A DNA stretch of 33,548 nt from Candidatus Levyibacteriota bacterium (GTDB lineage Bacteria > Patescibacteriota > Microgenomatia > Levybacterales > UBA12049), in contig DAIDHK010000014.1 in the NCBI GenBank assembly GCA_027459725.1, forward strand, positions 1-33,548, given 5' to 3'. The stretch's first letter is position 1. Each line of letters starts with the position of its first letter. Below, one piece after another: positions 5,936 to 33,548 of this stretch. Under the pieces are notes generated by a model. The model was not told the DNA's origin, ran no database searches, and was given only the letters and a program-made list of their open reading frames with translations. A program made the translations under genes and the position numbers.

Positions 5936-6476
5936 TTTAACAACTCCTTACTTAAATCCCCGACCGTAAGGTCGAGGGATGGAGTATTCCCTGCACCTTT
6001 TTTGCGGTAGAATGCAAGTATGGGGTTGATACATATTTCGCACTGTGTATATCAATGCGATTATCATATCGTAATAGTCACTAAATATCGAAAAGCGGTA
6101 TTCAATGAAGGAATTTTTGCATACTTCAAGATCAAGTTGGCGGAAATAACGGAGCATTATCCGCTTATCAAGATCAAAGAAGTGAATCATGATAAAGATC
6201 ATATACATTTGTTGATGTCCATTCCGCCAACAATGACAGTTGGGAAAGCAGTAGGACTGATAAAACAGAATACGGCACGAGAATTGAAGCAAAAATTCAC
6301 CTTTCTGAAGGATGTGTATTGGGGTACGGAATCAGTATGGTCAGAGGGATATTTCGTATCCACTGTCGGAGTAAACGATACAATAATAAGAAAGTATATT
6401 GAGAATCAAGGCAAAAAAGATGCAGGGCAAACTATGTTTGAAATAGACTAAAACCCCGACCGTAAGGTCGTGGGAA
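5936..6476 (+). mobile_element. IS200/IS605-type insertion sequence (tnpA only)
   Basis: A single tnpA flanked by subterminal hairpins in the same orientation at both ends. The left is CCCCGACCGTAAGGTCGAGGG at 5958-5978 and the right CCCCGACCGTAAGGTCGTGGG at 6454-6474. Short non-inverted palindromic ends without terminal inverted repeats are typical of this family, which transposes as single-stranded DNA. No tnpB is present. The right end sits inside a P-type ATPase pseudogene. The first 75 nt of this annotation recur exactly at 33474-33548. Exact outer ends cannot be fixed by eye because the family makes no target duplication; the coordinates follow the shared repeat and the right hairpin. 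Confidence 0.85.
6020..6451 (+). CDS. tnpA: IS200/IS605-family transposase TnpA (Y1 HUH)
   Basis: 143 residues, the normal family length. The HUH metal-binding motif is DHIHLLMSIPP with His61 and His63. The catalytic tyrosine is in RKYIENQGKKD (about Tyr126). The N-terminus HCVYQCDYHIVIVTKYRK is the usual family opening. The enzyme nicks and rejoins single strands at the hairpin-marked ends. The frame is intact, so this copy may still be active. Recent movement is suggested by the exact 75-nt match with the copy entering the window at its right edge. Confidence 0.93.
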   Translation: MGLIHISHCVYQCDYHIVIVTKYRKAVFNEGIFAYFKIKLAEITEHYPLIKIKEVNHDKDHIHLLMSIPPTMTVGKAVGLIKQNTARELKQKFTFLKDVYWGTESVWSEGYFVSTVGVNDTIIRKYIENQGKKDAGQTMFEID

Positions 6477-10791: not shown

Positions 10792-12378
10792 CTAGCCGAG
10801 GTAGCCAAGGTGGTCAAGGCACGTGTCTGAAGAACACGCTATCTCAGTTCGACTCTGAGTCTCGGCACCAAGTGTGATGCTCGTATCGTCAAACATACGA
10901 ATTTGTTGATATATCAGGCTAATTTGGGAGTTCGATAAGCTAGAATCGCTCCATACCATTCCAGAAGGGCTAATCGAACTTATTAGTACGCGAATCTGGC
11001 TTAGATTCGACATTTGGTACGTAGTTCCCAGGTTAGCAAACTTTTCCAGCATAAACTTTACTATTGCCTCAAGGTTATATTTCTGTAACAGTTCATCATT
11101 TTGTGCTACATGGATTGCAGCAATTTTCTCTTCAATTAGTTTATTCTGTTCTTTGAATATTTCATCCGAGTATACCCCACTTAAATTCTTTTGAATGAGC
11201 GATTGTCTTAATTCCTTTAATTTTTTTAGCTCGATATCAGCAGTCTCTTTTCGTTTTAACAATTGTGCACTTCTTTGATGATATGTTCTTCGTAGAAGAG
11301 CAATAAAGGCTGCTAGTCCTTCTTTCGTAAGTGAAATTGAAGATAGATAAGAAATAACAGCTTTGTTTAGTTTATCTACCGGTATAGATGCGGAACCACA
11401 ACGTTTATTGCAAATATAATACGCATATTTAGCATGTTCTCCCTTACTCCACGCTCCTGTTAATGGGTTTCCACAGGTACATCTTATTATCCCTCGCAAT
11501 GGGAACTCTGGATTATCTTTTATCCTTTTTGGAAGAGCTACATTAATATTAGTGTTACGACCGTCAAGAACAGCCTGGACGCGATAAAATATCGCTTCTG
11601 TAACCATTGGTATATGTTGTCCTCTTATCTCTTCAGGATACCGCGAAGAAGTTAATAATCCGATATAGAATTTGTTACGAAACATTCGGTTGATTGCTTG
11701 AGGCTGAATTAAATAGTCTTTGCCCTTAAATGCTTGTCTTACTCCGTATTCGTTCAATATATTTGTCATTTCGGAAAGGGTTTTCGTTCCTGTTGCCATA
11801 AGTTCCCACGCTTGAACAAGCTTATCCCAAACTTTTATATCTTTGACAGCATAGCCATTTTCATTTTTATATCCGAATGGTGGTATTGCACTTGGAAGTC
11901 CAGCTAAAAATCTAGCTCTCAGACCGTTTCGTGTTCTCTCGCTTTTTACATCATTATCCATCTGTGCAAAACTAGCTAACATAGACTCAATGAACCGTTC
12001 TGTTGGACTATTACCAGTAGGCTCAGAAGCGGAAATGATTTCAATACTATATTCTGAGAGTTTCTTTCGAATAGATAGATAGTCTTGCAGTTGTCGAGAA
12101 ATTCTATCAAGTCTATAGATAATAACTCCATTAATAGTTTTTTTATTTTTGCGACAATATTCAAGTAATTCGATAAGTGCGGGTCTACCTATAATGTTTT
12201 TGGCGGATCGTCCCTCTTCTTTGAAGACCTTAACAATTTCCATGCCGCGTCTTTCAGCTTCCTGTTTACAAATTTTTTCCTGTGTTTCCAGGGAAAAATT
12301 GTCAACTTGTTCTTCTGTAGATACGCGAAGATATATCACTGCACTATTTCCAATTTTAGTATTATTTAGTGGATCCAT
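10792..12378 (-). CDS. Large serine recombinase (integrase/resolvase family) fused in frame to antisense tRNA
   Basis: 528 residues. The N-terminal resolvase domain has the nucleophile Ser20 in YLRVSTEEQ, then LDRISR and the ERFIESMLASFAQMDND region. A recombinase domain follows, then a zinc beta-ribbon (CTCGNPL ... YYICNKRC, about 302-328) and a Lys/Glu-rich coiled coil (about 365-420). The conserved end is SGMVWSD ... ISLIYQQIRMFDD. The last 25 codons (10795-10869) lie entirely in antisense tRNA-Phe, so the tail is a product of integration. Related fragments at 27.5-31.1 kb have a different, conserved tail at this point. A small gene sits 2 nt upstream in the same operon. The enzyme should integrate and excise the element at the tRNA. 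Confidence 0.93.
   Translation of the reverse strand: MDPLNNTKIGNSAVIYLRVSTEEQVDNFSLETQEKICKQEAERRGMEIVKVFKEEGRSAKNIIGRPALIELLEYCRKNKKTINGVIIYRLDRISRQLQDYLSIRKKLSEYSIEIISASEPTGNSPTERFIESMLASFAQMDNDVKSERTRNGLRARFLAGLPSAIPPFGYKNENGYAVKDIKVWDKLVQAWELMATGTKTLSEMTNILNEYGVRQAFKGKDYLIQPQAINRMFRNKFYIGLLTSSRYPEEIRGQHIPMVTEAIFYRVQAVLDGRNTNINVALPKRIKDNPEFPLRGIIRCTCGNPLTGAWSKGEHAKYAYYICNKRCGSASIPVDKLNKAVISYLSSISLTKEGLAAFIALLRRTYHQRSAQLLKRKETADIELKKLKELRQSLIQKNLSGVYSDEIFKEQNKLIEEKIAAIHVAQNDELLQKYNLEAIVKFMLEKFANLGTTYQMSNLSQIRVLISSISPSGMVWSDSSLSNSQISLIYQQIRMFDDTSITLGAETQSRTEIACSSDTCLDHLGYLG
10795..10870 (+). tRNA. tRNA-Phe (anticodon GAA)
   Basis: 76 nt fold as a full cloverleaf. The acceptor is GCCGAGG/(T)CTCGGC with one G-T pair. 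The D stem is GCC/GGC, the anticodon stem CGTGT/ACACG with loop CTGAAGA (anticodon GAA), the variable loop four bases, and the T stem CTCAG/CTGAG with loop TTCGACT. The encoded CCA ends at 10870. The serine recombinase ORF on the other strand reads through the entire gene and stops just outside it, and the recombinase gene starts directly after the CCA. The tRNA is therefore the integration site of the element to its right and has been kept intact by the insertion. Confidence 0.95.
10864..10890. repeat. Left attachment junction (attL-like, R0)
   Basis: The core GGCACCAA joins the tRNA 3' end to the recombinase 3' end. A degenerate palindrome, GATGCTCGTATCGTC (10876-10890), follows. The same arrangement recurs at 27617, 28451 and 30890, there with the T half in place of the tRNA, and in weaker form at 29356. 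Assignment as attL is inferred. Confidence 0.6.
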
Positions 12379-12380
12379 AC

Positions 12381-12689
12381 TTATCCTTTGTTAATAACTT
12401 CTCTTAAAGTTATTCCGTTAAAAATGTCCTTTTCGAATTCATCCATCCATGTATCAATTAAAAATTGAAAGTTTGTGATAACGCACTCTATTTGTTCATC
12501 AGAAAACGCTTTTCCAATTTCTCCTAAATGTTTTCGTGTTTTGATAATTTTATTTTCTTCTGTCTGATCTAAAAATATAGAATTTATTGCTTTTTCAAGC
12601 GGTGCTCGCGGGTTTTGTTCAGCAGTTTGCTTAACTGGTGTGGTAACAGTTTCAAGTGATGCAAATTGTGGTAATTCAGCAGGATTCAT
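12381..12689 (-). CDS. Small protein of unknown function upstream of the serine recombinase
   Basis: 102 residues, acidic, mostly helical by composition (KTRKHLGEIGKAFSDEQIE; FLIDTWMDEFEKDIF), with a disordered Pro/Thr/Gln-rich N-terminus. No motif I recognise. The stop is 2 nt before the recombinase start, so both are one transcript from the promoter at 12718-12747. Position suggests a regulator or a directionality/accessory factor for recombination, but this is inference from context only. It could also be the repressor that binds the paired operators upstream; no helix-turn-helix is obvious. Confidence 0.7.
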   Translation of the reverse strand: MNPAELPQFASLETVTTPVKQTAEQNPRAPLEKAINSIFLDQTEENKIIKTRKHLGEIGKAFSDEQIECVITNFQFLIDTWMDEFEKDIFNGITLREVINKG

Positions 12690-12937: not shown

Positions 12938-15900
12938 ATGTTATTCAACAGATTTGTCACTGTTGTTCTCCTAGCTTTTCTTGCTTTAATGCTCGTTACT
13001 CCTCATGCGTTTGCAGTTGACCTATCTACATACGCCCAGCAACAAATTGACTATTATAATGCCCACAACCCATATATAAATGGCACTGCGAAAGAACCTA
13101 TTCCGCCTGCAGATACTCCTACCCCAACACCTACTATTTCTTTTGCTTATACACCTTCTTCAACTGATAATCCTAGCGAAGTGGAATTACTGAATAAATT
13201 AAGATATGATGGCCTGTCCAATGGTCAGGTATTACTTCTCTATATCATATTATCAATTCCATTTATTCCATTAGCATGGAAACTGAGTTTATATAACACA
13301 TACTCGGGAAGCCAATTAGCTCATCTTTCTCCATACCAGGCTACTTTGGCTGTTATTTTATGGCCTTTTGCATTGATAATCTTTCTCATTCTCGGATTCA
13401 TCTTCATTCGTTGGTTTTTGCAAACAATATTTCCATTTATTTTGCGTCGATTTGCTAAGAAGGGTTTATCAAAAACATTTCTTCAATTAATATTCCCATC
13501 AGATACGAGTAAATCAGCATATGCTACTGAACAGTTATATGTTCTAGTACATTCATTTGCTCGTCGTAGTAGTTTCTTTGATCAACTTACACAGTTTAAA
13601 AAAACATATTCCTTTGAACTAGTATCCACGAAAGATAAGGGTATACGATATATCTTTGGTATACCAACCAAGGAAGCAGAAATTATGAAAAGAAGTCTAT
13701 TATCTTTTCTTCCTGGAATAAAAATAGTAGAAGTCCCAGATTATATACCTAGTCTGATGGATATACATGGTGCACTAAATATTGCTGAGCTAAAGCTTTC
13801 ATCACATTTCGCATTGCCACTCAATACACAAAAAGCATTGTCACAACATGATCCCATGATGTATCTGACTGGAAACATGACCAAACTTGCCCAAGATGAA
13901 TTAATTTCATTTCAAGTAGTCACCACACCGATATTATCTGGAATTCACCGAAACGTAATTTCTGAGATGCAAAAGCTTAGGTACAAAATGTATAGAAACC
14001 AGCCACTAACTAATACGCTTCAGAAAAACCCAATTGAAATAGTTGTATCTCTTCCAGGGGTAAATATTTTGTGGTTTTGCTTAAAAGCAACAATTCTTAT
14101 TCTTAAATTTATAATTATGTTCGTATTTAGCATGTTAATGGGGTTGATCGATCCCAAGAACACCTCAGCTATTCCATTCTTAGCTAATACCGAAATTAAA
14201 ATTCCATCTGTAATGGTAAATCCATACGAACAGGAACTGCAGAGAATTGTTAAAACAAAAGTTGATCAACAGTTATTTGAAACCTCAATTCGCATCCTAG
14301 TAATAGGTCAAGATCGAAACGAAGTTAGTATGCGAATGAATGGACTTTTATCTTCATTTGCACCAATGAGTAGTACCTATCAAATGCTACTATCCAAAGG
14401 TAGCCTTTTACCAAGAAATATTCGTATCAAACAACGATTACAGCAATTTAGTGATCGAGTACTCGCTATGAATACAGCCTTGAATAAAAATCCTGTTTTA
14501 TCAACTTCAGAAATTGCAGACATTTATCATTTCCCATATACCGATACAACAAAAACTGAGGATATGGTCAAATCTATGAGCCAAGATTTACCTGCTCCGC
14601 TCCTGCTTAAGCAGGACAAAGAGCAAGACGTAGTTTTTGGTAAAAATACATATGGAGGAAGTGAGATTAATATTGGCCTTACTGATGATGAGCGCTCACG
14701 TCATATGTATTTGATTGGACAAACTGGTTCTGGAAAATCAACTGTGCTTTTTCATATGGCAAAAGACGATATTAAAAAAGGACGAGGGATATGTGTTATT
14801 GATCCCCATGGAGATTTAGTTGAGGATTTACTTACAGTTATTCCTGAAGAGAGAATTAATGATGTCGTATATATTAATCCGTTTGACATAAAATATCCGG
14901 TCAATATCAACCTCCTGGAGTTAACCCCAGATCTTGATGAAGACGATTTAGAACTTGAGAAAGAACTAGTTGCGGAAAGCGTTATTTCAATTTTTAGAAG
15001 AATTTTTCAAAAAGATGAACAAGTTGACGCACATCGAATCGAATATATTCTTAGAAATACTATATACACTGCATTTTACGTCAAAGACGCAACCATATTC
15101 ACGATTTTTGATTTACTTACAGATGAGAAATTACGTCAGGAGACGATAACCAAAATTGATGATTATCATCTAAAGAACTTCTGGAAGAGTGAATTCGAGA
15201 AGGCAGGAGATTATCAGGTTATCAAAATGATCAGTGGAGTGACAGCAAAAATTGGTAGATTTCTCTTCTCTCCGATTGCTAAACGAATTTTAGAGCAACC
15301 ACATTCAACTATTTCGTTTGATAAGTTATTAGATGAGGGTAAAATAATCCTTTGTAATGTCAGTGAAGGAAAACTCAGTGAGGACACATCTCAACTTCTT
15401 GGTACAACAATTATTGCCAAAATACATTTAGCAATGCTAAAAAGAGCGCGAACTGATAAAGCATTGAGAAGCGCATTTTATTTATCAGTTGATGAATTCC
15501 AGAATTTTGCTACTCCATCATTTACTAAATTGCTTTCCGGTGGTAGAAAATTTGGTCTTCGTGTGACAATTGCCGAACAGTCGACAACTCAACAGGACAA
15601 TTCAAGAATTACAAATATGATTTTGGCTAATGTGGGAACTGTTATTTGTTTTAAAACTGCCAGTCCAGTCGATGAAGACTTACTACTCCCTCAATTTAGC
15701 CCATTGGTGAAAAAAGGAGAGATATTAAATCTTCCTAGATTTCACTTCTATATCAAACTTGGAAGTATTGAACCACAGGAACCATTTTCAGGTACTACGC
15801 TTCCTATGCAAGACAAAAGAGATAAAAAGGAAATTGAGCAGATCGTTGCAACTTCACAGAAAAATTACGCCAGTATATATGTAAAACCAAAATTGAAAAA

Positions 15901-15985
15901 AGTAACCAATCCTGTTAAAGGTACTACCAAACACAATGGAAAAACAGGTAAGAAACGTAAAAGCGTCAGTACATTGACCGACTGA
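12938..15985 (+). CDS. TraG/VirD4-like conjugative DNA-transfer ATPase (membrane-anchored)
   Basis: 1015 residues. An N-terminal signal-like helix is followed by a Pro/Thr-rich extracytoplasmic stretch and two further membrane segments near residues 100-165. The ATPase domain has Walker A GQTGSGKST (about 593-601), VIDPHGDL just after, Walker B YLSVDEFQN (about 847-856) and GGRKFGLRVTIAEQS, the TraM-recognition/TraG signature. The C-terminus is Lys-rich. Such proteins form hexameric pumps that move DNA through a transfer channel. No other type IV secretion genes are in the window, so this may be a mobilizable element using this ATPase alone or in conjunction with other machinery. A replication-relaxation protein follows after 102 nt. 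Confidence 0.88.
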   Translation: MLFNRFVTVVLLAFLALMLVTPHAFAVDLSTYAQQQIDYYNAHNPYINGTAKEPIPPADTPTPTPTISFAYTPSSTDNPSEVELLNKLRYDGLSNGQVLLLYIILSIPFIPLAWKLSLYNTYSGSQLAHLSPYQATLAVILWPFALIIFLILGFIFIRWFLQTIFPFILRRFAKKGLSKTFLQLIFPSDTSKSAYATEQLYVLVHSFARRSSFFDQLTQFKKTYSFELVSTKDKGIRYIFGIPTKEAEIMKRSLLSFLPGIKIVEVPDYIPSLMDIHGALNIAELKLSSHFALPLNTQKALSQHDPMMYLTGNMTKLAQDELISFQVVTTPILSGIHRNVISEMQKLRYKMYRNQPLTNTLQKNPIEIVVSLPGVNILWFCLKATILILKFIIMFVFSMLMGLIDPKNTSAIPFLANTEIKIPSVMVNPYEQELQRIVKTKVDQQLFETSIRILVIGQDRNEVSMRMNGLLSSFAPMSSTYQMLLSKGSLLPRNIRIKQRLQQFSDRVLAMNTALNKNPVLSTSEIADIYHFPYTDTTKTEDMVKSMSQDLPAPLLLKQDKEQDVVFGKNTYGGSEINIGLTDDERSRHMYLIGQTGSGKSTVLFHMAKDDIKKGRGICVIDPHGDLVEDLLTVIPEERINDVVYINPFDIKYPVNINLLELTPDLDEDDLELEKELVAESVISIFRRIFQKDEQVDAHRIEYILRNTIYTAFYVKDATIFTIFDLLTDEKLRQETITKIDDYHLKNFWKSEFEKAGDYQVIKMISGVTAKIGRFLFSPIAKRILEQPHSTISFDKLLDEGKIILCNVSEGKLSEDTSQLLGTTIIAKIHLAMLKRARTDKALRSAFYLSVDEFQNFATPSFTKLLSGGRKFGLRVTIAEQSTTQQDNSRITNMILANVGTVICFKTASPVDEDLLLPQFSPLVKKGEILNLPRFHFYIKLGSIEPQEPFSGTTLPMQDKRDKKEIEQIVATSQKNYASIYVKPKLKKVTNPVKGTTKHNGKTGKKRKSVSTLTD

Positions 15986-16060
15986 AGAAACAGTGTATAC
16001 CCATGTACACCATATTTACGTATTTTTGAGCCTAAAAGAGATAATTCTTTCTCTTCCTTA

Positions 16061-16076
16061 CTCTTATATATAAGAG
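16061..16076. promoter_or_regulatory. Perfect 16-bp palindrome upstream of the replication-relaxation gene
   Basis: CTCTTATATATAAGAG is a perfect inverted repeat that runs into the strong ribosome binding site AGAGGAG, 12 nt before the ATG at 16088. It could be an operator, or an RNA hairpin masking the ribosome binding site. Confidence 0.5.
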
Positions 16077-16087
16077 AGGAGAAAACA

Positions 16088-16882
16088 ATGAAAAAACAAA
16101 CACAACAAAATAACACAAAACAAACCACAATCCTAAAACTTAAACAAAGACAAATAGAAATACTAGAATTAACCTTTCGATTCAGATTCCTCAATACAAC
16201 ACATATTCAAAACTTACTAAATCACAAATCAAAAGATAAAATTATAAAATGGCTAAATGAATTAGTAGAAAACCATTATTTATTCAAATTCTATCAACAA
16301 CAAGTTCCAAGCATTCCAGCATTGTATTGTTTGGATAAAGAAAGTATTAATTACTTTAGAGCTAAAGAAATAGAGGAAAAATTACTAAAACGTATTTATA
16401 AAGAAAAAACTTTATCCGTAAAGTTTAGAACTCATTGCCTATTATTAGTACATATCTATATCTCTCTACAATCACTTGTTAAAACAACAAAAGCAACACT
16501 TACGTTTTATACAAAAACTGATTTGGATAATATAAATCACCTGATAGAACCTGCCCCGGATAGTTATTTTATAATCACAGAGAAAAATAAAATGAAGAAG
16601 CGCTACTTTCTAGAAGCTTATGAGCCGTATAAACCCTGGAAAACGTATAAATGGCGTGTGCGGCAATATATAAACTATCACAAAAGTGATGATTGGCAGG
16701 ACAATACAAAAAAACCATTTCCTGAGCTGATCCTAATTTGCCCAACTAAAGAAATACAAAATTGGCTAGCAAAACAGATAAAAAAGCTTCGGAGAACTGT
16801 AGAACCGAAAATATATTTATCAACTTGGGAAGAAATACATAAATTTGGTATATCTATCCAGGTATTACACAAGATTGACTGA
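16088..16882 (+). CDS. Replication-relaxation family protein (plasmid/conjugative element type)
   Basis: 264 residues. The N-terminal winged-helix region (LTFRFRFLNTTHIQNLLNH; KIIKWLNELVENHYLFKF; PALYCLDKESINYF) matches the Replic_Relax family often found beside TraG-like genes on mobile elements. The second half holds charged segments such as EAYEPYKPWKTYKWRVRQYI, probably the DNA-processing part. It has a strong ribosome binding site. The first 100 nt of coding sequence are nearly free of G, unlike neighbouring genes. It probably initiates replication or transfer of the excised element; the exact reaction is not established for the family. It converges on the next gene with a 22-nt gap. Confidence 0.75.
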   Translation: MKKQTQQNNTKQTTILKLKQRQIEILELTFRFRFLNTTHIQNLLNHKSKDKIIKWLNELVENHYLFKFYQQQVPSIPALYCLDKESINYFRAKEIEEKLLKRIYKEKTLSVKFRTHCLLLVHIYISLQSLVKTTKATLTFYTKTDLDNINHLIEPAPDSYFIITEKNKMKKRYFLEAYEPYKPWKTYKWRVRQYINYHKSDDWQDNTKKPFPELILICPTKEIQNWLAKQIKKLRRTVEPKIYLSTWEEIHKFGISIQVLHKID

Positions 16883-17850: not shown

Positions 17851-18735
17851 TTATATTTTTTCAGGTGTACATTCTGTTAATTCTGTTTCAATAGTTGCAT
17901 GTTCAATATGAAATTTTTCTTTTAACTTATCTTTAATGCTCTTAACTATTTTTATACTTTCCTGAACATCACAATCCTCAATAACTATATGACAAGACAA
18001 TGCGGCATAATGAGACGAGATAGCCCACAGATGCATATCGTCCACACCTTTGACTTTTGGTGTTGTTCTTATGAGCTCTTTTACTTTTTCAACATCCATA
18101 CCTTCAGGGATACCTTCGAGTAGGACATGTACTGCTTCTCTTGCTACTCTGAATGCCGCATAGAGCAACATGATACCAATAAAGATACTGATAATTGGAT
18201 CAATGACTGACTGGTGCGTCATGCTAATCAGAAACCCAGCAATAAGTGTACCCACGAGTGCTATGGCGTCAAATGCCATATTGATAAAGGTGCTTTTTAC
18301 ATTTAAATCTTTTTTATCTTTTGAAAGAATAAAAGCTATTGTTCCATTGACCAGAATGCCAACTAAAGCAACCATCATTATGGTCAGTCCTGAGACTTCG
18401 CGAGGATGCGAGAAAATACGATGTGCCGCTTCGTAAAAGATATAAAAGGCTAAGAGCACAAGAATCCCTGCGTTTAAAAGCGCAGTAAGTATTGATGCTC
18501 TACCATAACCATAGGAGTGCTCAGGGTTTGCCTCTCGTTGAGCAACTTTATTACCAAAGATGGAGATGATAATACTTAATGTATCTGTTAAGTTATGTCC
18601 TGCGTCAGAAAGTAAAGCTAAACTTCCAGACAGAATACCCACAATAAACTCAAAAATTGTGAAAGCAGTATTCAGAACAAGACTTACTTTTAATTTAGTA
18701 TCAGAATTAGCGGCATTATGATGTATGTCACTCAT
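17851..18735 (-). CDS. Cation diffusion facilitator (CzcD/ZitB-type) metal exporter
   Basis: 294 residues, six membrane helices plus a C-terminal cytoplasmic domain of the CDF family. The helix-2 signature is LALLSDAGHNLTD (about 39-51), with His47 and Asp51 as metal ligands. The helix-5 site reads NMAFD (152-156) in KSTFINMAFDAIALVG, where zinc exporters have HxxxD, so one ligand is Asn. The C-terminal domain keeps VDDMHLWAISSHYAALSCHIVIED. CDF pumps exchange Zn, Co, Cd, Fe or Mn for protons. The Asn substitution leaves selectivity uncertain. It lies 45 nt downstream of the copper operon on the same strand and is the last gene of the metal block. Confidence 0.92.
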   Translation of the reverse strand: MSDIHHNAANSDTKLKVSLVLNTAFTIFEFIVGILSGSLALLSDAGHNLTDTLSIIISIFGNKVAQREANPEHSYGYGRASILTALLNAGILVLLAFYIFYEAAHRIFSHPREVSGLTIMMVALVGILVNGTIAFILSKDKKDLNVKSTFINMAFDAIALVGTLIAGFLISMTHQSVIDPIISIFIGIMLLYAAFRVAREAVHVLLEGIPEGMDVEKVKELIRTTPKVKGVDDMHLWAISSHYAALSCHIVIEDCDVQESIKIVKSIKDKLKEKFHIEHATIETELTECTPEKI

Positions 18736-18780
18736 AATACTTATTGTAACGCATGAAGGATTTTAACAGAAGGAGTATGT

Positions 18781-19353
18781 TTATTTCTTCTGTATATGTT
18801 TCCAAAGCCAAATGCCAGCAAGAATAAGGTCGATAAATACAACCAGCCAGACTAAGAAACCGAGTAATCCAAATCCCCAACCAAAACTGCCATTCATCAT
18901 AGTGCCATAACCATTACCACCCCAACCCATCATAGGAGATCCACCCCCTCTCGGAGTACTGTTTTGTGAAGATGCAGTAGTACATCCAGTTACATTTCTT
19001 CCAATTTGGATATGCATCTGCTCTTCACCAGTATTTCCTCGCATCTGTTGTATTCGTTGGTTCATAGCAATATGAGCTGAGGTATTACCTCCAAACATCT
19101 GACTCATGGTATATTCACCAATTTTCTCAAAATCGCTATCAGTTAGTTTCACACAGGTTGTTTGTTGGTTTTGCAGTTGGTCAAAGAATTGTTTGCCCTG
19201 TGCTTCTTCCTGTTGCTGTTGCTGAACCTGTGTAGGATCGACAGTAATAGAGGAATTACCATAGTTTCCCATCATCATTTGTGCATGCACTTGTACAAAC
19301 AGTCCGCTTGTTGCAAAGAAAATAAGAGTAAGAAGTAAGATTTTTTTATACAT
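18781..19353 (-). CDS. Met/Gln-rich exported membrane protein of the copper operon
   Basis: 190 residues. It has a signal peptide (residues 1-24, ending VHAQ), then MMMGNYG, a Gln run, and a central domain with two cysteines (TTCVKLTDSDFEKIGEYTM ... RNVTGC). A Gly/Met stretch (GGGSPMMGWGG, GTMMNGSFGWG) and one C-terminal helix with a basic end follow. Clustered methionines outside the membrane are typical of Cu(I) ligands. It is the last gene of the CsoR-headed operon after the rhodanese. I do not know a named family; copper binding is inferred from Met clusters and neighbours. Confidence 0.75.
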   Translation of the reverse strand: MYKKILLLTLIFFATSGLFVQVHAQMMMGNYGNSSITVDPTQVQQQQQEEAQGKQFFDQLQNQQTTCVKLTDSDFEKIGEYTMSQMFGGNTSAHIAMNQRIQQMRGNTGEEQMHIQIGRNVTGCTTASSQNSTPRGGGSPMMGWGGNGYGTMMNGSFGWGFGLLGFLVWLVVFIDLILAGIWLWKHIQKK

Positions 19354-19361
19354 AGTTATAG

Positions 19362-19700
19362 TTATTGCGTTGTATATCCTTTTGCCCGCCAGGCTAATAA
19401 TCCACTCTTCATATCATATACGTTCGTATATCCAAGTGCAACCATGGCAGCAACAGCATGGACGCTTCGTGAGCCACTCAAACAATAAACATAAATAGTT
19501 TTATTTTTATCTGCAAGCACTTTTTCAACCGTATCTTGCACTTTATCTACAGGAAGGTTAATACTTCCTGCAATGCTTCCTTTTGCAAATTCTTGTTCTG
19601 TCCGTACATCAAGCAAAACAATATCAGATGTAGCATCAATTGCCTTCTTTACATCACTTGCATCAATTTGTGGCACGTTTGGTACTGAAAAAGTAAACAT
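19362..19700 (-). CDS. Single-domain rhodanese-like sulfurtransferase
   Basis: 112 residues from the ATG at 19700 (MFTFSV). The ORF track start at 19751 would overlap the upstream gene by 47 nt, whereas 19700 leaves a 4-nt gap, so I prefer it. The domain is complete: IVLLDVRTEQEFAKGSIAGS, then YVYCLSGSRSVHAV with the active-site Cys loop CLSGSRS, then GYTNVYDMKSGLLAW. Rhodaneses carry sulfur as a persulfide on that Cys. In CsoR-family operons they often accompany persulfide or metal stress genes. The partner here is unknown. Confidence 0.88.
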   Translation of the reverse strand: MFTFSVPNVPQIDASDVKKAIDATSDIVLLDVRTEQEFAKGSIAGSINLPVDKVQDTVEKVLADKNKTIYVYCLSGSRSVHAVAAMVALGYTNVYDMKSGLLAWRAKGYTTQ

Positions 19701-19704
19701 AGTT

Positions 19705-20208
19705 TTACATGCCCATTGCGTCAGTTCCATGGTCTGACAGCTGTGCATCAAACCATGTGTGGATACTCGTTACAAGACTGGTATTACTTGTGGTGTAAGT
19801 AATTTGTCCTCCATTTGGTACATCTTCATACACAATTTTTATCTGTGATGCTCCATTAGACAACGCTTGCAATCCTGGCATATTGCCTCCATGTAGTTTT
19901 GCTGGGTCTTGAAAATCTCCTTTTTGAAATAACTGTGCTTCCATCTGTAAGTGCATACGGATTAAAGAAATTTGAGAGGTGTTATTAGCATCTTTGACCA
20001 CAACTTCTTGGATACCTCCTGTATCTGTTTTTTTGAAAATATGGGTTGTTTGGTTGAGGTTAAATGGCATAACTGTTGCTCCTTTTTGGTGTATCATCGC
20101 TTGTCTAGCTGTTAAAGAAGCTTGATGGGTATTATACAGATAAACACCAGAAACTCCTGCAACAAGGATAATAAAAAAGAGTAAGATTAGTAATGTATTT
20201 TTTTTCAT
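19705..20208 (-). CDS. Conserved membrane-anchored protein of metal loci
   Basis: 167 residues. One N-terminal helix (about 5-25) anchors an extracytoplasmic domain. The stretch MPFNLNQTTHIFKKTDTGG, then ISLIRMHLQMEAQLFQKGDF, DPAKLHGGNMPGLQAL and HTWFDAQLSDHG, recalls a widespread small protein family that databases sometimes mislabel as aspartate carbamoyltransferase. That is from memory, not a search, and the true role is not known to me. His and Met (THIF, RMHLQM, KLHGGNM) could bind metal. Start and upstream CsoR-type stop overlap as ATGA (20205-20208), so the genes are translationally coupled. The name aspartate carbamoyltransferase should not be used. Confidence 0.75.
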   Translation of the reverse strand: MKKNTLLILLFFIILVAGVSGVYLYNTHQASLTARQAMIHQKGATVMPFNLNQTTHIFKKTDTGGIQEVVVKDANNTSQISLIRMHLQMEAQLFQKGDFQDPAKLHGGNMPGLQALSNGASQIKIVYEDVPNGGQITYTTSNTSLVTSIHTWFDAQLSDHGTDAMGM

Positions 20209-20471
20209 TTCTTATGTAGGTTAAGTAATTTTTCTAGCTGTTCAAGTCGTTTCTCAGGAATTGCCTTTCCTTCCATGAGATCATATTTGATAAATCCTCG
20301 AAGTGTTCTTGCCCGAAGCGTATCAAAGGATTTAGCAATAGAGGTAGCAAGTGAGGAAATTTCTTCACATGAACGGTTTTCTTCAACATATTTTTTCAGC
20401 GTTTCCATTTGTCCTTGAATACGATTGATATGATTGAGTGTTTCTTTGTGATCTTGGTGTCTTGTGTCCAT
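20205..20471 (-). CDS. CsoR/FrmR-family repressor lacking the canonical copper ligands
   Basis: 88 residues of the all-helical DUF156 family (RIQGQMETLKKYVEENRSCEEIS). CsoR binds Cu(I) through Cys-His-Cys. Only the first, Cys34, is present. At the positions of His and Cys (25 and 29 residues later) there are Phe59 and Asp63. It therefore probably senses something else, such as persulfide, formaldehyde or another metal, or is a constitutive DNA binder. It has its own promoter and G/C-tract operator over the start codon, and heads the group with the conserved anchored protein, rhodanese and Met-rich protein. The ligand loss is read directly; the altered effector is inferred. Confidence 0.85.
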   Translation of the reverse strand: MDTRHQDHKETLNHINRIQGQMETLKKYVEENRSCEEISSLATSIAKSFDTLRARTLRGFIKYDLMEGKAIPEKRLEQLEKLLNLHKK

Positions 20472-20514
20472 ATACCCCCACCCCTATATTAGAGTAAGAA
20501 GATATTTTTGTCAA
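20470..20514 (-). promoter_or_regulatory. Promoter and operator of the non-canonical CsoR gene
   Basis: TTGACA (20509-20514), 17-nt spacer, TAATAT (20486-20491). An operator-like G/C tract, read on the plus strand as ATATACCCCCACCCCTATAT (20470-20489), overlaps -10, start site and ATG. Its centre is a C tract rather than an inverted repeat, like the FrmR/RcnR class of site. The same G tract on the transcript doubles as ribosome binding site. Confidence 0.7.
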
Positions 20515-20528
20515 TTATTCATGCGGTG

Positions 20529-21047
20529 TTAAAATAGTTTTTTCAAAATTGCCTGATATTTCTGTGGGTTTTCAACCCCTGCTAATAAAATATCCTCCTG
20601 ATATCCGCCTGACGCACTGATCTTGAGAAAAATATCACCATAATGAAATAGTTTTCCTAACCACGATTGCTTAATAGCAATTGAGCGTATATTCTCGTAA
20701 TGATACGTTTCTTCACTAATGTGGAGGATACCGCTTCGTCTTATGATATGCTTTTCGGTCAAAAAATACATGTCAGTTGCCCATGCTAATATGATATTTA
20801 ACAGTAGAACTACCTGAAAAATGATATTTATCAATTGCAGACCAAATAATGCCTCAGAGATATGTATATGATGCTGTAAGTCAAATGGTAAAGGGATACC
20901 TAGATTTAATACATAGAAGATAAACGTATATAAGCCATCAAAGACAACCAATAAAACTAAGAGCTTTACTGTTAGTATCGTAATGCTCCCACGTATTGGT
21001 TCAAGCTCATGATTGCAATCTTCATGTTTTCTATTAAATACTTCCAT
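20529..21047 (-). CDS. Membrane protein with bacterial PH (bPH2) domain
   Basis: 172 residues. Two membrane helices (about 24-48 and 70-95) are followed by a bacterial pleckstrin-homology-like domain: YFLTEKHIIRRSGILHISEE, YHYENIRSIAIKQSWLGKLF, then GDIFLKISASGGYQEDI. This domain type is found in small membrane proteins of unknown role. It starts 1 nt from the DUF5676-like gene and is the last gene of the CsoR1-headed group. The reason it is in a copper operon is unknown. Confidence 0.82.
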   Translation of the reverse strand: MEVFNRKHEDCNHELEPIRGSITILTVKLLVLLVVFDGLYTFIFYVLNLGIPLPFDLQHHIHISEALFGLQLINIIFQVVLLLNIILAWATDMYFLTEKHIIRRSGILHISEETYHYENIRSIAIKQSWLGKLFHYGDIFLKISASGGYQEDILLAGVENPQKYQAILKKLF

Positions 21048-21048
21048 A

Positions 21049-21315
21049 CTATTTTACCCACTTGTTATAAAGAGAGGCTGAACGATAAGTCAAAATCCAG
21101 ACAGTAGCTCCTAAGGTTATTACTCCGATAACAACTGAGCCAATATTGATTGATGTTGCGACTCCATGAACAGAACCCACATTTAGAAAATGGAACCATG
21201 TTTGTGTAATAGAAAATGACAGGTCTGGAAGTAACACTACAAATAAAGCACAAAGCACGTACGCTATCATCAAGACAGTTGTAACTGCATTAGCTAATAT
21301 AATTGGTTTTATCAT
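21049..21315 (-). CDS. DUF5676-like small membrane protein
   Basis: 88 residues with two membrane helices (about 5-30 and 53-75). The pattern ANAVTTVLMIAYVLCALFVV and the TWFHFLNVGSVHG region resemble the DUF5676 family. That family has no known function and often sits near metal-resistance genes. A strong Shine-Dalgarno, GGGGTGAT, lies 7 nt before the ATG. A frame-shifted shadow ORF (21065-21253) is not real. Confidence 0.72.
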   Translation of the reverse strand: MIKPIILANAVTTVLMIAYVLCALFVVLLPDLSFSITQTWFHFLNVGSVHGVATSINIGSVVIGVITLGATVWILTYRSASLYNKWVK

Positions 21316-21332
21316 ACGAAAATCACCCCCCT

Positions 21333-21554
21333 CTATTTATCAATTGGTTGAGCCGTGTACCCAACCTTTTTTATAATCGCTACTATCTTATCTTGAGTCA
21401 TTTTATCTGTATCAAATTCTACTTCTGTCAGTGCTTTGGCATAATTCGTATTCGCTTCTTTCACTCCTTCTGTATCCTCTAATTCACCATCTATATTCAT
21501 TGCACAGCTTGTACAGTGCATACCTGTTATTTTGAATTTTGTTTTTGCTGTCAT
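21333..21554 (-). CDS. CopZ-like heavy-metal-associated (HMA) domain protein
   Basis: 73 residues making a single ferredoxin-like HMA domain. The metal loop is GMHCTSCAMNID (CxxC at Cys14 and Cys17). This is the size and pattern of copper chaperones that deliver Cu(I) to CopA. Its ATG overlaps the stop of the TauE/SafE-cupredoxin gene as ATGA, so translation is coupled. A CopA with its own HMA domain is encoded upstream in the same operon. Confidence 0.92.
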   Translation of the reverse strand: MTAKTKFKITGMHCTSCAMNIDGELEDTEGVKEANTNYAKALTEVEFDTDKMTQDKIVAIIKKVGYTAQPIDK

Positions 21555-22702
21555 ATGACGTTTATCACCCCCCGATACATTCCCATACTACACATAAAAG
21601 CAATTTGTCCAGGCTGACTAGGAGCAGTAAACGTAATGTCTCCTGATTGTCCAACTGGCACTATCTTTTGAATACCAAGTTGCGGAATATTAAATGCCTG
21701 TATACAACTAGTACCGCTTTGATTTTGCAAATGCAATGTTACCTGACTGCCTGCTTTCACAGTTATTGCATTCGGAATGTATGCTGCGGAGCTTATGGTG
21801 ATTGTTGCTTTACTTACTGGATTTCCTGTTTGTGTATTGCTACCACTAGCATTGGTACAAACACTTACAGTACACCAGACGCTTTTTGCTAGATTATCCA
21901 AAGTCAAATTACTTCCAGTTAGAGCAATGGCATTGTTCAAATTAAAAACAGCAAGAAGAATAAGAGCAAATGCTGCAAGACGCATAAACTTCTGCTGATA
22001 GATATCTCCTAACTTAGTCGCAAAATAGCCTAAGAGGAAAAATACTGGTGTTGTGCCGATAATAAACGAAAAAAGTATTGCTGCTCCAAGAATTGGTTTA
22101 CCACTGGCTATGGCAAGAGCCATCATTGCTTGTGTTGTACCACAAGGAATAAAGATCGTAAACGCTCCAAGCGTTGCTGGTGCAAATAAGTCTTTGCTCT
22201 TTGATTGTTTTCTCACCATCCTCGTTAAGAATTTGGGAGGTTGGATAATAAAGTAGCGAAAGATTGGATGAACATTAAGAATATTTAACGCAGTTCCTAT
22301 CATAAAGACACCCACAGCAATTTGTAAAATGACTCTCGTCATTATTGACAACTGAAAAAACGAGCCAAACCAACCAAGAAGTAAGCCGAGAAGTGTGTAG
22401 GCAACAAGTTTTGAAGCTAAAAATGAGAGAATAGGGAGAGCTGTCCCTTTCTTAGCTTTCTCCTTCAAGCGCTCTTCTTCTCTTTGCGCAAGTGTTGCAG
22501 CAAGGAGTCCTCCCTGTACTGCCATACATGTTAATCCTCCTGTCAGAAGCCCTGTCAGGAAAATAGCGAGAAGACTTGTACTTTGCCCACCTCCTGATGA
22601 GATATTTCCTGAAAATTTGGTAATAACAAATAGGATTCCAATAACGCCAAGTGTAGTTATACTTCCAATTTTAATTGCTGATTTTTTTATTTGTATTGTC
22701 AT
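21551..22702 (-). CDS. TauE/SafE (UreH-like) membrane domain fused to a cupredoxin domain
   Basis: 383 residues. Residues about 1-270 have seven or so helices with the family motifs LTGGLTCMAVQGGLLAA and FIPCGTTQAMMALAIASG, each with Cys in a membrane helix. After a linker comes a cupredoxin-like beta domain (about 290-383). Its probable copper ligands are Cys in SGTSCIQAFNIP and Cys/Met in FMCSMGMYRG. Similar fusions in metal operons are thought to handle copper or electrons across the membrane. The Cys pairs within helices suggest metal or electron passage. It begins 55 nt after the CopA stop. The fusion is seen directly; transport of copper is inferred. Confidence 0.85.
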   Translation of the reverse strand: MTIQIKKSAIKIGSITTLGVIGILFVITKFSGNISSGGGQSTSLLAIFLTGLLTGGLTCMAVQGGLLAATLAQREEERLKEKAKKGTALPILSFLASKLVAYTLLGLLLGWFGSFFQLSIMTRVILQIAVGVFMIGTALNILNVHPIFRYFIIQPPKFLTRMVRKQSKSKDLFAPATLGAFTIFIPCGTTQAMMALAIASGKPILGAAILFSFIIGTTPVFFLLGYFATKLGDIYQQKFMRLAAFALILLAVFNLNNAIALTGSNLTLDNLAKSVWCTVSVCTNASGSNTQTGNPVSKATITISSAAYIPNAITVKAGSQVTLHLQNQSGTSCIQAFNIPQLGIQKIVPVGQSGDITFTAPSQPGQIAFMCSMGMYRGVINVI

Positions 22703-22757
22703 AAATAATTATTCTAAGTATACCTTCTCTTTTTTAGATTACAATATCTCTCTCAAA

Positions 22758-25010: not shown

Positions 25011-25347
25011 GATACATATTCATCCCGCAGGCAAACGGGAATTCTCCTTCCTCTTGTGGTTTTATCTCAACTGTTACTTTTTTATTTAATGGCAAAAACT
25101 TTCTTGTTTTGAATTCTCCTAGTACCACTTCTTCTAAACAGGTTGAGGGATCTTTCCGAAAAAAATTAAGTTTTATAGTTTGTCCTTTTTTGACAACAAT
25201 CGTACTTGGACTGTATCCGCCGTCAACAATAATATCTACGCTATCTACGACTTGCACCTGTTTGTCTCTCTTCATCAAGAAAAACCAGTAGACAAATCCA
25301 ATTGCCAAAATATCAATAATAGTAATAAGTAATTTATCTATTGGCAT
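24988..25347 (-). CDS. Membrane-anchored cupredoxin-like protein
   Basis: 119 residues. An N-terminal helix (about 6-25) is followed by a cupredoxin-like beta domain. It has [34 protein letters not shown] and [12 protein letters not shown], putting one Cys in each half and Met residues near the end, as in blue copper and related Cu-binding domains. It resembles the C-terminal domain of the TauE/SafE fusion in the same operon. It probably binds copper outside the membrane. The 3' end overlaps the copA start by 23 nt; the 5' end is 3 nt from the preceding gene. Confidence 0.82.
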
Positions 25348-25350
25348 ACG

Positions 25351-25869
25351 TTAATCTCCACATGTTGTGCTTTTCTTTGCTTCTGCTATGATTTGTTGCT
25401 TGGTGACTGCTTGAGAAAGTAACGTTTTGTCATTTGTCCCCATGAAGACGACTAAACTATCGAAAGGGCGGATTGGGTGATCTTGAAAGTCAAAAACTTG
25501 TTTGTTATTGATATATCCAGTCGCTTTAGCATAAGCAATAGGATAGTTCATATTTGTAAACAAATCCTTCCATAGTGCACCTGGTTGTTCCACATGTACT
25601 AAATTCCCAACATCCTCATGTAGATGTGCTTTCTCAAGTTGGATAGTATGAGAATCAGTGCTCTCTTTTGCACCACTCGTACACGGTTCTACATACATAT
25701 ACTTACTATCTGAGAAATCAAGTTTTTTGTTATTTTGGAATACGACAAATCCTGCATGGTAGTGTACCTTTTCTGTTTCGATAGGCTTTTTCAAGTAGAT
25801 AAAGTATGTATATGCTCCGATAATAATAAGGAGGCAAACAATGACCGTAGCAAGAATCTTTTTATTCAT
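25351..25869 (-). CDS. His-rich membrane-anchored protein of unknown function
   Basis: 172 residues. One N-terminal helix (about 5-25) is followed by an extracytoplasmic domain with HYHAGF, KAHLHEDVGNLVHVEQPG and WKDLF. The clustered histidines look like metal ligands. Cys pairs (EPCTSG; TTCGD at the C-terminus) could form a disulfide. No family name known to me. It lies between csoR and the cupredoxin gene with 3-nt gaps on both sides, so a role in copper binding or sensing outside the membrane is likely but inferred. Confidence 0.7.
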   Translation of the reverse strand: MNKKILATVIVCLLIIIGAYTYFIYLKKPIETEKVHYHAGFVVFQNNKKLDFSDSKYMYVEPCTSGAKESTDSHTIQLEKAHLHEDVGNLVHVEQPGALWKDLFTNMNYPIAYAKATGYINNKQVFDFQDHPIRPFDSLVVFMGTNDKTLLSQAVTKQQIIAEAKKSTTCGD

Positions 25870-27472: not shown

Positions 27473-27718
27473 TTAGTTCACCTTTTTTGAATAGTAAGCT
27501 TTTGAGTATTTTTTATTTTCACTACCAAAGATATCAGTATTGCTAGAATCTTTATCATAAATAACCATCAATTTATCAATCCAGGCACAAAAAAGTTCGA
27601 TTGAAAAAAGACCTGGGGCACTAGGTGTGATGACGTCGTCATCAAACATATGAATTTGTTGATATATCAAGTTAATTTGAGAGTTCAACGATATCTTCAC
27701 TTTTACTCTAGCAAGCAA
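27473..27718 (-). pseudogene. Recombinase 3'-end repeat R1: T tail joined to P remnant
   Basis: An 81-codon ORF. Its first part, LNSQINLIYQQIHMFDDD, matches the end of the serine recombinase (SNSQISLIYQQIRMFDD). After the GGCACT core it continues as the T tail, APGLFSIELFCAWIDKLMVI, ending KAYYSKKVN. The rest of the recombinase is absent. T (27473-27616) appears to be the right end of the main element and the recombinase piece (27625-27718) the left end of the first cassette. It is not a functional recombinase. Confidence 0.7.
27617..27643. repeat. Junction core R1 with perfect palindrome
   Basis: GGCACTAG, then GATGACGTCGTCATC (27629-27643), 7-bp arms around one central T. The equivalent sites are at 10864, 28451 and 30890, with a degraded one at 29356. 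Confidence 0.65.
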
Positions 27719-28324: not shown

Positions 28325-28333
28325 TTATATAAG

Positions 28334-28523
28334 TTAATTCAGCAATTTTTTAACTATAATCATGTCATTATCGATTTTATGTGGATTTTGATATGCAAAA
28401 ATTATCTTCTCGATCCATTTACAAAAAAGTTCGATTGAAAAAAGATCTGGGGCACTAGGTGCGATGAAATCGTCATCAAACATGCGAATTTGCTGATATA
28501 TCAAGCTAAACTGGATTTTGACA
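28334..28523 (-). pseudogene. Recombinase 3'-end repeat R2
   Basis: Not in the ORF track. On the minus strand it reads FSLIYQQIRMFDDDFIAPSA, then PDLFSIELFCKWIEKIIFAY and on to a stop at 28334. This is the recombinase end joined to the T tail at the core (28451-28458). Only about 20 recombinase codons remain. Most of 28325-28634 is this repeat plus the next promoter. Confidence 0.68.
28451..28477. repeat. Junction core R2
   Basis: GGCACTAG followed by GATGAAATCGTCATC (28463-28477), a partly decayed form of the R1 palindrome. Confidence 0.6.
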
Positions 28524-28597
28524 AATTTTACTCAATATAATCATAAATTAAATTCGACGAATTTAGCCACAAAATGAGTTCGACTAGCATAAACTAC

Positions 28598-29214: not shown

Positions 29215-29395
29215 ATTTAGTTCACTTTTTTTCGAATAATAAGTTTTTGAGTATTTTGTATTAGCAAATATGACAGTATCACTCGTATATGATTCATAAA
29301 TATCTATTAATTTCTCTATCCAAGCACAAAAAAGTTCGATTGAAAAAAGATCTGGGGCACCAAATATGATTATCTCATCAATTAACTGAAAACGA
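29215..29395 (-). pseudogene. T tail repeat R3, lacking clear recombinase sequence
   Basis: The minus strand encodes GAPDLFSIELFCAWIEKLID, then KYSKTYYSKK, almost the same as R1. On the other side of the core (29356-29363, GGCACCAA) the recombinase sequence is replaced by sequence reading QLIDEIIIF, with only faint similarity to MFDDDVITP. It may be the right attachment junction (T next to the original chromosomal flank), or a very decayed P half. The 29397 gene starts directly beyond. Confidence 0.6.
29356..29363. repeat. Possible right attachment core (R3), direct repeat of the tRNA end
   Basis: GGCACCAA is identical to 10864-10871 at the tRNA end, in the same orientation. If R0 is attL, this is the best attR candidate in the window, giving an integrated length near 18.5 kb. 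Eight bases alone would not be significant; the case rests on the T half beside it. Confidence 0.45.
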
Positions 29396-29396
29396 T

Positions 29397-30671
29397 ATGG
29401 ATGATCAATTAACTCAAAATAAACAAATAATCACCCCTCCTATGGGTAATGTTTCAGTAGTTAATGCTTCCAAAACAAAATCTTCTCTATTACACATAAT
29501 AGGACTCATTATTATCATTCTTATTATTTTGGGGATAGTCAGTTATTTTTTTATTACTGGAAACAGTAAGAAACTCACAAATGATAAACAAGCAGCTAAC
29601 AACATGCAGTCAACTAAGATAGATGTAAGTCCTTCATTTGGCCAGTCCTCGGTAACTATTAATCAAGTTACCAAGATACCTACTATTACTCCTATCAGTA
29701 ATTCTAATAATGGCTGGCAAACCTTCACCGATCCGCAAACACATATATCTGTTCAATATCCGCCTACATGGACAATGCAGACAATAAACAGCGGTGCTGG
29801 ATTAATCCTACAAGGCCCACAGGGCACAATTAATGCTCAGTGGGCACAGAGCGGATTCGGAGGCGTATGTGGCTCTCAACAATTTGAGAGCGTACAGATA
29901 TTTAATCAGCAAGTCAATAGTTGTTATAGTGTCCAAAGTAATGGTTCAGATACATACGGTCTTATATGGCCAAAACTTCCTAATCTAAACTTTAGCGCTT
30001 CCGCTATAGTCAACCCACCAAATAATGCGGCCAATGGAATAACTGTTTTTAAAATTCTTTCGACATTTAGACTTACTACCCCTGCCGCCTCTGGGTGGAA
30101 AACATATACAAATTCGCAATACGGATTTCAGATAACATATCCCTCCGAAGGAATTGTCATGAGTAATGGATGTTTCGGTTTAGATTCAAAACAATGTACA
30201 TATAACCTTAATACATGCGGTAACGATATACACTTCGATGATCAATATCAGCCGGTTAATGACAGACTTTTAGTTGTTGACAATTTTTTTAGTGTTTGGA
30301 TTACACCTATCAGCATGTCTCTTTCTGACTATATTAAACAAATGGATCCACAGCAAGTGTATGTTTATCAGACAATAACTGGCTCAAATGCAGATGAGGC
30401 AGTACAAATCATAGGGCTAAAACCCAGCGTGCAGCTAAACGGTCCCCCGCCTTTTCCATATATTTTTAGTCTTTATAAAAAAGGCAATGATCTCTTTAGC
30501 ATTAGAAAATTGCAAAACGATGGAGGAGTCGGTGGGTGTGTGATTGGTTGTAGTTGGCCTCAACAAATTGGCGAACAATCGTCATATAATGTTTCTCAAC
30601 AACAATGCTCCTCTGTTCAGCAACAATTTGTTTCCTGGAATATCCCCTTAAGTTTCAAGTTTATAAATTAA
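29397..30671 (+). CDS. Membrane-anchored protein with two PsbP-like domains
   Basis: 424 residues. A cytoplasmic N-terminus of about 30 residues, one helix (about 31-53) and a Ser/Thr linker precede two similar outer domains that begin WQTFTDPQTHISVQYPPTW (about 105) and WKTYTNSQYGFQITYPSEG (about 235). This opening is typical of PsbP-like domains in secreted bacterial proteins. The second domain has several cysteines (GCFGLDSKQCTYNLNTC). Function unknown. The gene starts just after the R3 repeat, its ATG 33 nt past the core, and ends about 100 nt before R4, so it occupies a whole cassette. Confidence 0.65.
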   Translation: MDDQLTQNKQIITPPMGNVSVVNASKTKSSLLHIIGLIIIILIILGIVSYFFITGNSKKLTNDKQAANNMQSTKIDVSPSFGQSSVTINQVTKIPTITPISNSNNGWQTFTDPQTHISVQYPPTWTMQTINSGAGLILQGPQGTINAQWAQSGFGGVCGSQQFESVQIFNQQVNSCYSVQSNGSDTYGLIWPKLPNLNFSASAIVNPPNNAANGITVFKILSTFRLTTPAASGWKTYTNSQYGFQITYPSEGIVMSNGCFGLDSKQCTYNLNTCGNDIHFDDQYQPVNDRLLVVDNFFSVWITPISMSLSDYIKQMDPQQVYVYQTITGSNADEAVQIIGLKPSVQLNGPPPFPYIFSLYKKGNDLFSIRKLQNDGGVGGCVIGCSWPQQIGEQSSYNVSQQQCSSVQQQFVSWNIPLSFKFIN

Positions 30672-30771
30672 TTAATCATTTACAGAAATTAATTTGTGAT
30701 AATAGAAACCTCAGTAATAATTAAAGAATCAATGCTCCCAAATAATTAGTTCAATTTTATAAAATACTCTT

Positions 30772-31092
30772 TTTAAAATATTATGCTCTCTGATAGTAAA
30801 AAAGCTTGCTTGGGGTCATAATTTTTTTGATACAAAATCATAAATTTGGCCAGCCAACACTGAAATAGCTCGAATAGGAAAAGACGTGCGTCACCAGGTG
30901 CGATGACGTCGTTGTCAAACATACTAATTTGTTGATATAGCAGCTAATTTAGGTGTTCGATAATCCTAGATAGCCCCACACAATTCCAGAGGTGATAATC
31001 GAACTTAATAAGACGCGAATCTCAATGAGACTCGACATTTTATACGTTTTACCTAAGTTAGTAAATTTATCCATCATAAACTTTGGTAATAT
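30772..31092 (-). pseudogene. Recombinase 3'-end repeat R4, longest remnant
   Basis: The minus strand encodes a longer end of the serine recombinase: FMMDKFTNLGKTYKMSSLIE, then IRVLLSSIITSGIVWG and LSNT, matching FMLEKFANLGTTYQMSNLSQ and following of the intact enzyme. A frameshift and stop follow, then LYQQISMFDNDVIAPGDA and a divergent T tail, LFLFELFQCWLAKFMI. It is more diverged than R1-R3, so older or from another lineage. Core GTCACCAG at 30890-30897. It fills most of the gap between the two flanking genes. Confidence 0.75.
30890..30916. repeat. Junction core R4
   Basis: GTCACCAG followed by GATGACGTCGTTGTC (30902-30916), one base off the perfect R1 palindrome. Confidence 0.6.
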
Positions 31093-33473: not shown

Positions 33474-33548
33474 TTTAACAACTCCTTACTTAAATCCCCG
33501 ACCGTAAGGTCGAGGGATGGAGTATTCCCTGCACCTTTTTTGCGGTAG
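33474..33548 (+). mobile_element. Left end of a second IS200/IS605-type copy, cut by the window edge
   Basis: 75 nt identical to 5936-6010, including the hairpin CGACC-GTAA-GGTCG and the sequence leading to tnpA. The copy has inserted in the gene above. The window stops inside the repeat, which fits a contig end caused by a repeated element. Confidence 0.9.

Follow-up and report, generated by a model that had tools for sequence, protein, structure and literature searches.

Does an element that integrates into a tRNA gene also rewrite the enzyme that put it there? The question is raised by a recombinase gene that runs antisense through a tRNA-Phe gene in the window analysed here, which comprises all 33.5 kb of contig C14 from a draft genome of 1.5 Mb. 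An earlier note on this DNA held that integration swaps the C-terminus of the recombinase, giving an antisense tRNA tail when integrated and a conserved tail, T, when circular, and that this swap could bias the direction of recombination. We confirmed that the tail-swap observation is right, general, and stronger than first stated. A functional direction switch is plausible but unproven.

The two ends of the main element

The left end of the element carries the following features:

10792..12378, minus strand: large serine recombinase (LSR), integrated form, 528 aa, with Resolvase, Recombinase and Zn_ribbon_recom domains
10795..10870, plus strand: tRNA-Phe (GAA), the attB target, from ARAGORN and translation
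10864..10870: left junction core GGCACCA (antisense TGGTGCC), joining the tRNA half of attB to the P half of attP
10871..10915, minus strand: P half-site, which encodes the stretch of recombinase immediately preceding the junction
12381..12689, minus strand: small conserved ORF of 102 aa directly before the recombinase, present in 54/55 family loci

The ARAGORN call and the ORF translation agreed with the claim that the recombinase ends in the full antisense tRNA-Phe: the 25 final codons of its 528-aa ORF (12378-10792, minus strand) are positions 10795-10869, the whole tRNA in antisense. Matches to PF00239, PF07508 and PF13408 all exceeded the cut-off, and the protein also matched the phrog_95 integrases. 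Its domains follow the LSR order of a Resolvase catalytic domain, then the Recombinase domain, zinc ribbon and coiled coil, with the long helices expected of an LSR coiled coil at residues 352-399 and 405-426 of an AlphaFold model. The confident fold of this model ends with a helix at 488-494, and the last 32 residues (497-528), including the tRNA-encoded tail, are predicted to be disordered (pLDDT < 50).

The other end of the main element is followed by a series of related junctions:

27473..27621, minus strand: T end of the main element, core GGCAC, coding for the putative circle-only C-terminal tail APGLFSIELFCAWIDKLMVIY...KKVN and stop
27617..27718, minus strand: R1, the P remnant of an older recombinase; its T-P joint is an attP-like junction (T-P repeat 27473-27718)
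28330..28546, minus strand: R2, second T-P junction, with a T tail of 39 codons (T-P repeat 28386-28520)
29227..29414, minus strand: R3, third T copy (T-P repeat 29291-29414)
30755..31089, minus strand: R4, fourth T-P junction, decayed, with a longer recombinase remnant (T-P repeat 30825-31089)

When the recombinase's own P half (P0) was joined to T (27473-27621) at the GGCAC core, an uninterrupted ORF of 552 aa resulted, as the earlier note had predicted from the segment 27473-27616. The in-frame tail of this ORF is LGAPGLFSIELFCAWI...KKVN, with the C-terminal end ...SITLGAPGLFSIELFCAWIDKLMVIYDKDSSNTDIFGSENKKYSKAYYSKKVN; taken from the T end near 27616, the tail of the joined product reads LGAPGLFSIELFCAWIDKLMVIY...KKVN. 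Its expected length of 50-60 residues did not hold, as 39-48 codons were measured. The R1, R2 and R3 copies stay open in frame for 48, 39 and 60 codons, compared with 10-20 in the other two frames. R3 has a damaged frame: an A run immediately ahead of the stop has gained 1 nt. The P half of R3 has diverged. The three further T-P junctions to the right of the main element are progressively decayed, and we infer that the array records repeated insertions beside the same tRNA, with the newest adjoining it. This arrangement is not a matter of chance, because it recurs across the recombinase family with other tRNAs.

tRNA targets and their recognition across the family

Sampling one genome per species yielded 72 loci, nearly all from Patescibacteria, and 68 intact recombinases were counted, including that of the window and a viral contig homologue (L086). 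The 3' end of the recombinase gene overlapped the 3' end of a tRNA gene in 57 of these 68, covering 11 isotypes (Leu 13, Glu 11, Gly 6, Phe 5, Ser 5, His 5, Arg 3, Gln 3, Lys 3, Pro 2 and Ala 1); a terminal tRNA was not called in the other 11. Where the T-loop could serve as an anchor, 50 of 52 members shared the same codon phase. Residues beyond the core were arbitrary among integrated members, running from 2 to 87 codons, and integration replaces the C-terminal residues of the enzyme as in the class formed by phage Mx8 and the rumA integrative and conjugative elements (ICEs). Serine recombinases of this class that are more distantly related likewise terminate in an antisense tRNA (Leu, Gln, Asn, Gly, Trp, Val or Ser; loci L004, L005, L015-L018, L020, L023, L024, L026, L027, L029 and L036), and the overlap of gene and tRNA reaches beyond the T-tail family. 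Two family members come from records titled Anaerolineae (L182, 54%) and Acidobacteria (L226, 30%), which are either misbinned contigs or cases of transfer outside Patescibacteria.

Transcription of recombinase and tRNA was convergent in every case. An overlap this general would suit an improbable alternative in which the recombinase is switched at the level of expression: the 3' end of its mRNA would be antisense to a tRNA gene with strong transcription, which would lower the amount of enzyme through convergent transcription or duplex processing, and the tail would be irrelevant. This scenario leaves the protein-like conservation and fixed length of T, described below, unexplained.

Profile searches for T found it detached in 29 of the 374 class genomes, and in 24 of the 40 genomes holding a family recombinase. 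Seventeen recombinases had a T on the same contig and strand, on the distal side. In all 17 pairs, T begins by repeating the 3' end of its own recombinase's tRNA target in the same codon phase, although the 17 joints are not independent trials because codon phase is inherited. Core identity between attP and attB spans 5-15 nt in these pairs (longer in tandem copies), within the short cores typical of LSRs; one 15-nt example is TTTTGGTAGTCCCAA, from a tRNA-Glu locus (L166). The letters of the core change with the target, and the longest match was 9.3 nt for cognate and 4.6 nt for non-cognate combinations. None of 20,000 permutations reached the cognate value, and the same was true with tandem cases excluded. 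Natural T-P junctions at two loci (L163 and L216), in which P matches that of the recombinase itself perfectly near the core, display the in-frame joint directly, though not within an intact gene.

The T-loop of the tRNA, TTCGAAC in antisense, lies at a fixed distance from the core. The motif recurs in T, and in 11 of 13 pairs its distance from the core is greater there by exactly 5 bp; for the other two, with an ambiguous core register, the difference came out as 4 and 2, and as 5 in the alternative register. The T end in the window has the T-loop-like ATCGAAC 22 nt from its core. In serine integrases, the motif bound by the zinc-ribbon domain (ZD) is 5 bp nearer the centre in attB than in attP (PMC3783163). 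The shift found here, on the T/tRNA side only, matches that displacement and independently identifies T-P as attP and the tRNA as attB. Recognition of the T-loop would also explain how a single family uses many tRNA isotypes. We considered a tyrosine-integrase tRNA island of the Islander type and rejected it: the recombinase is a serine recombinase, and the distal end consists of a 5-15 nt core and T, without a tRNA fragment.

The T tail as half-site and as protein

If T were only the DNA half of attP, its frame would be open by chance and the tail would be no protein feature. The first 33 nt are compatible with this reading: differences among 570 pairs of T copies fell on the three codon positions at 33/31/36%, indicating conservation as DNA without codon periodicity. 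From nt 33 to 63 the shares were 33/21/46%, and dN was below dS in 124 of 140 usable pairs, both from copies found by protein profiles and biased towards protein-like sequences. R1 and R3, found by DNA similarity, differ once in the first 33 nt and then 5/5/12 times by codon position, albeit in a small sample. T lengths peak at 47-51 codons, with much shorter tails of 24-30 codons in some subfamilies. Many T tails, from many genera, end in YSxxYYxKKxN and a stop, and a shallow AlphaFold model of the R1 ORF places a helix at residues 40-58 (pLDDT about 80). The conserved helix and stop, the 17 of 17 joints in phase, and the long open frames of R1, R2 and R3 all argue against a chance frame, which was already disfavoured and which we regard as very improbable.

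In our reading, T starts with an attP half-site of about 25-33 nt and continues as what appears to be protein-coding sequence under selection. The sequences show T as a conserved amphipathic helix with a conserved stop, found in integrated elements only in detached form. The attachment site attP spans the 3' end of the integrase's own coding sequence, both P and T halves being coding, so that recombination with the tRNA 3' end exchanges T for antisense tRNA and leaves the integrated enzyme with an arbitrary end. The claim that T tails are conserved across homologues stood. The tail swap and the conserved circle-only tail are well supported because cognate joints are in phase, T is protein-like, and integrated tails are arbitrary and disordered. 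As the joint is in frame, this anatomy also upholds the claim that the excised circle encodes a different enzyme: one made from the circle would carry T, whereas one made from a single integrated copy would not.

The earlier note had suggested looking for T tails in un-integrated copies, but T was seen only detached at distal ends or in tandem T-P junctions. No contig with an intact recombinase joined in frame to T was present in the 374 class genomes, the 72 genome loci or the viral contigs. Phage and plasmid collections contained no close homologue, and searching viral contigs for T gave no confirmed match. Two candidates were discarded. One recombinase with an apparently natural T tail, in genome G351, has an ORF that crosses an antisense tRNA-Lys into a neighbouring element's T by coincidence, and the viral contig copy, a 72% homologue, likewise ends in antisense tRNA-Phe. 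Comparisons with two genomes (G001 and G060) revealed no clean empty site: the sequence downstream of tRNA-Phe in G001 had no useful match in the window's genome, and of the relatives searched, a single one had the gene that flanks the G060 element, with no tRNA close to it.

Because attP lies inside the gene, integration would be carried out by the circle-made enzyme with T, and excision by the enzyme of the integrated copy without it. Since T appears to be maintained as a protein, it should matter in the circular state. Our best explanation, to which we give slightly better than even chances from the anatomy of the sites, is that an attP-spanning LSR swaps T on integration, that T functions in the circle and favours integration, and that the tail reports the state of the element. 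The helix would be functional only in protein made from the circle, favouring integration or conferring full activity and stability; alternatively, it might sustain enzyme activity up to the point at which the helix is lost by integration. Excision would necessarily fall to the T-less form, produced once the element has integrated, and this form may be weaker or differently regulated, probably together with the product of the small abutting gene. The tail would then signal, from within the enzyme, the free or inserted state of the element.

A simpler possibility, which we consider unlikely though worth weighing, is a neutral overlap: T would be an ordinary C-terminus that is dispensable once integrated, there would be no switch, and directionality would come from the ZD shift and the small protein. 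The 5-bp shift by itself makes attP and attB asymmetric, as in known serine integrases, the small gene adjoins the recombinase in 54 of 55 loci, and the arbitrary integrated tails imply a core enzyme that tolerates any tail. On the other hand, T stays constrained like a protein far past the half-site and has a conserved stop there, implying a role as protein that it can play only in connection with P.

The small gene bears on the switch in another way. The earlier note had proposed that direction could be biased without a separate factor, which is doubtful because this gene of about 100 aa, belonging to no known family, abuts the recombinase in those 54 loci. It had no match in Pfam, PHROG or NCBIfam, its family shares a conserved C-terminal EFQFLIDSWLDEFEKxxFxGxTLKELL, and it is a candidate for a directionality factor or a regulator. 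A W-(L/I)-D patch occurs both in this ORF and in the T tail, but homology of the two was rejected at an hhalign probability of < 1%.

The tail swap itself has precedents, which fit the mechanism proposed; what is new is that serine integrases target tRNA genes and that the tail is conserved. Streptococcal ICEs in rumA have a single serine integrase with its att site inside the integrase gene, and after excision they code for an integrase whose length and C-terminus are altered, as in the family of the window; the authors suggest that the two forms may differ in function (PMC4701971). These ICEs insert into a protein-coding gene and change the reading frame of both proteins, whereas our family uses the 3' ends of tRNA genes of 11 isotypes. 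No conserved detached tail is described for them in the passages considered (PMC4701971); here every joint preserves the frame and leads into a conserved helix. In Myxococcus phage Mx8, attP lies inside int and integration creates a new int 3' end (IntP to IntR), which has been called a molecular switch (PMC6070905); 13 residues replace 112 C-terminal ones and the modified enzyme is less active, according to the rumA report (PMC4701971). Mx8 shares the swap of the integrase C-terminus with our family but is a single phage with a tyrosine integrase and no family-wide conserved tail. Mycobacteriophage BPs has attP inside a gene whose C-terminal tail is removed by integration with regulatory effect, but the gene is a repressor and the tail a degradation tag (PMC4557955). 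The large serine integrases of Listeria LI/A118 and other phages have the same domain order and 5-bp ZD offset, with targets and att architecture described without tRNA genes (PMC3783163). SSV-type archaeal integrases, a case cited by Islander, likewise extend across attP. They differ from the present family in being tyrosine integrases. SSV-type integration splits the integrase gene rather than swapping a short tail.

A swap previously seen in one tyrosine phage integrase, Mx8, and noted for the rumA serine ICEs recurs here across many Patescibacterial lineages, with a conserved tail that would be translatable only from the circle. This makes built-in directionality a directly testable question. 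Serine integrases on many tRNA isotypes run counter to the stated position that tRNA genes are not among their targets, and integrase tools would benefit from so simple a rule of recognition (T-loop motif, 5-bp shift). This tRNA-targeting family may be no less worthy of attention than the tail swap. At somewhat less than even chances, we would extend the proposal to a phylum-wide group of integrases that recognise tRNA genes through the universal T-loop TTCGAAC, with integration removing from the enzyme a conserved, regulatory helix and directionality partly hard-wired in the gene's coding sequence.

Backbone, cargo and tandem cassettes

The main element spans about 10.87-27.62 kb and encodes a HerA/TraG-like ATPase, a Replic_Relax protein and copper/metal genes. 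Two of its genes form a conserved backbone:

12938..15985, plus strand: HerA/TraG-like (VirD4-type) ATPase
16088..16882, plus strand: replication-relaxation (Replic_Relax) protein

This pair (12938-16882) is divergent from the recombinase, and related ORFs occur in 49 family loci, which suggests a conserved mobilizable or conjugative element backbone in Patescibacteria. The recombinase's element is an integrative, probably mobilizable, element of this phylum. Genes for cation efflux, DsbD/cupredoxin and heavy-metal P-type ATPases, together a metal-resistance island, are among its cargo at 17851-25869.

The interval 27.6-31.1 kb of the window is occupied by short tandem cassettes that have T-P junctions at their borders and lack an intact recombinase; the short units lying between later junctions encode CopG-type antitoxins. 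Similar cassettes occur at L119 (G315), L118 (G050) and L039 (G005), and they look like non-autonomous units mobilised in trans. Finally, the contig contains a perfect 75-nt direct repeat at 5936-6010 and 33474-33548, the second copy being its very end.
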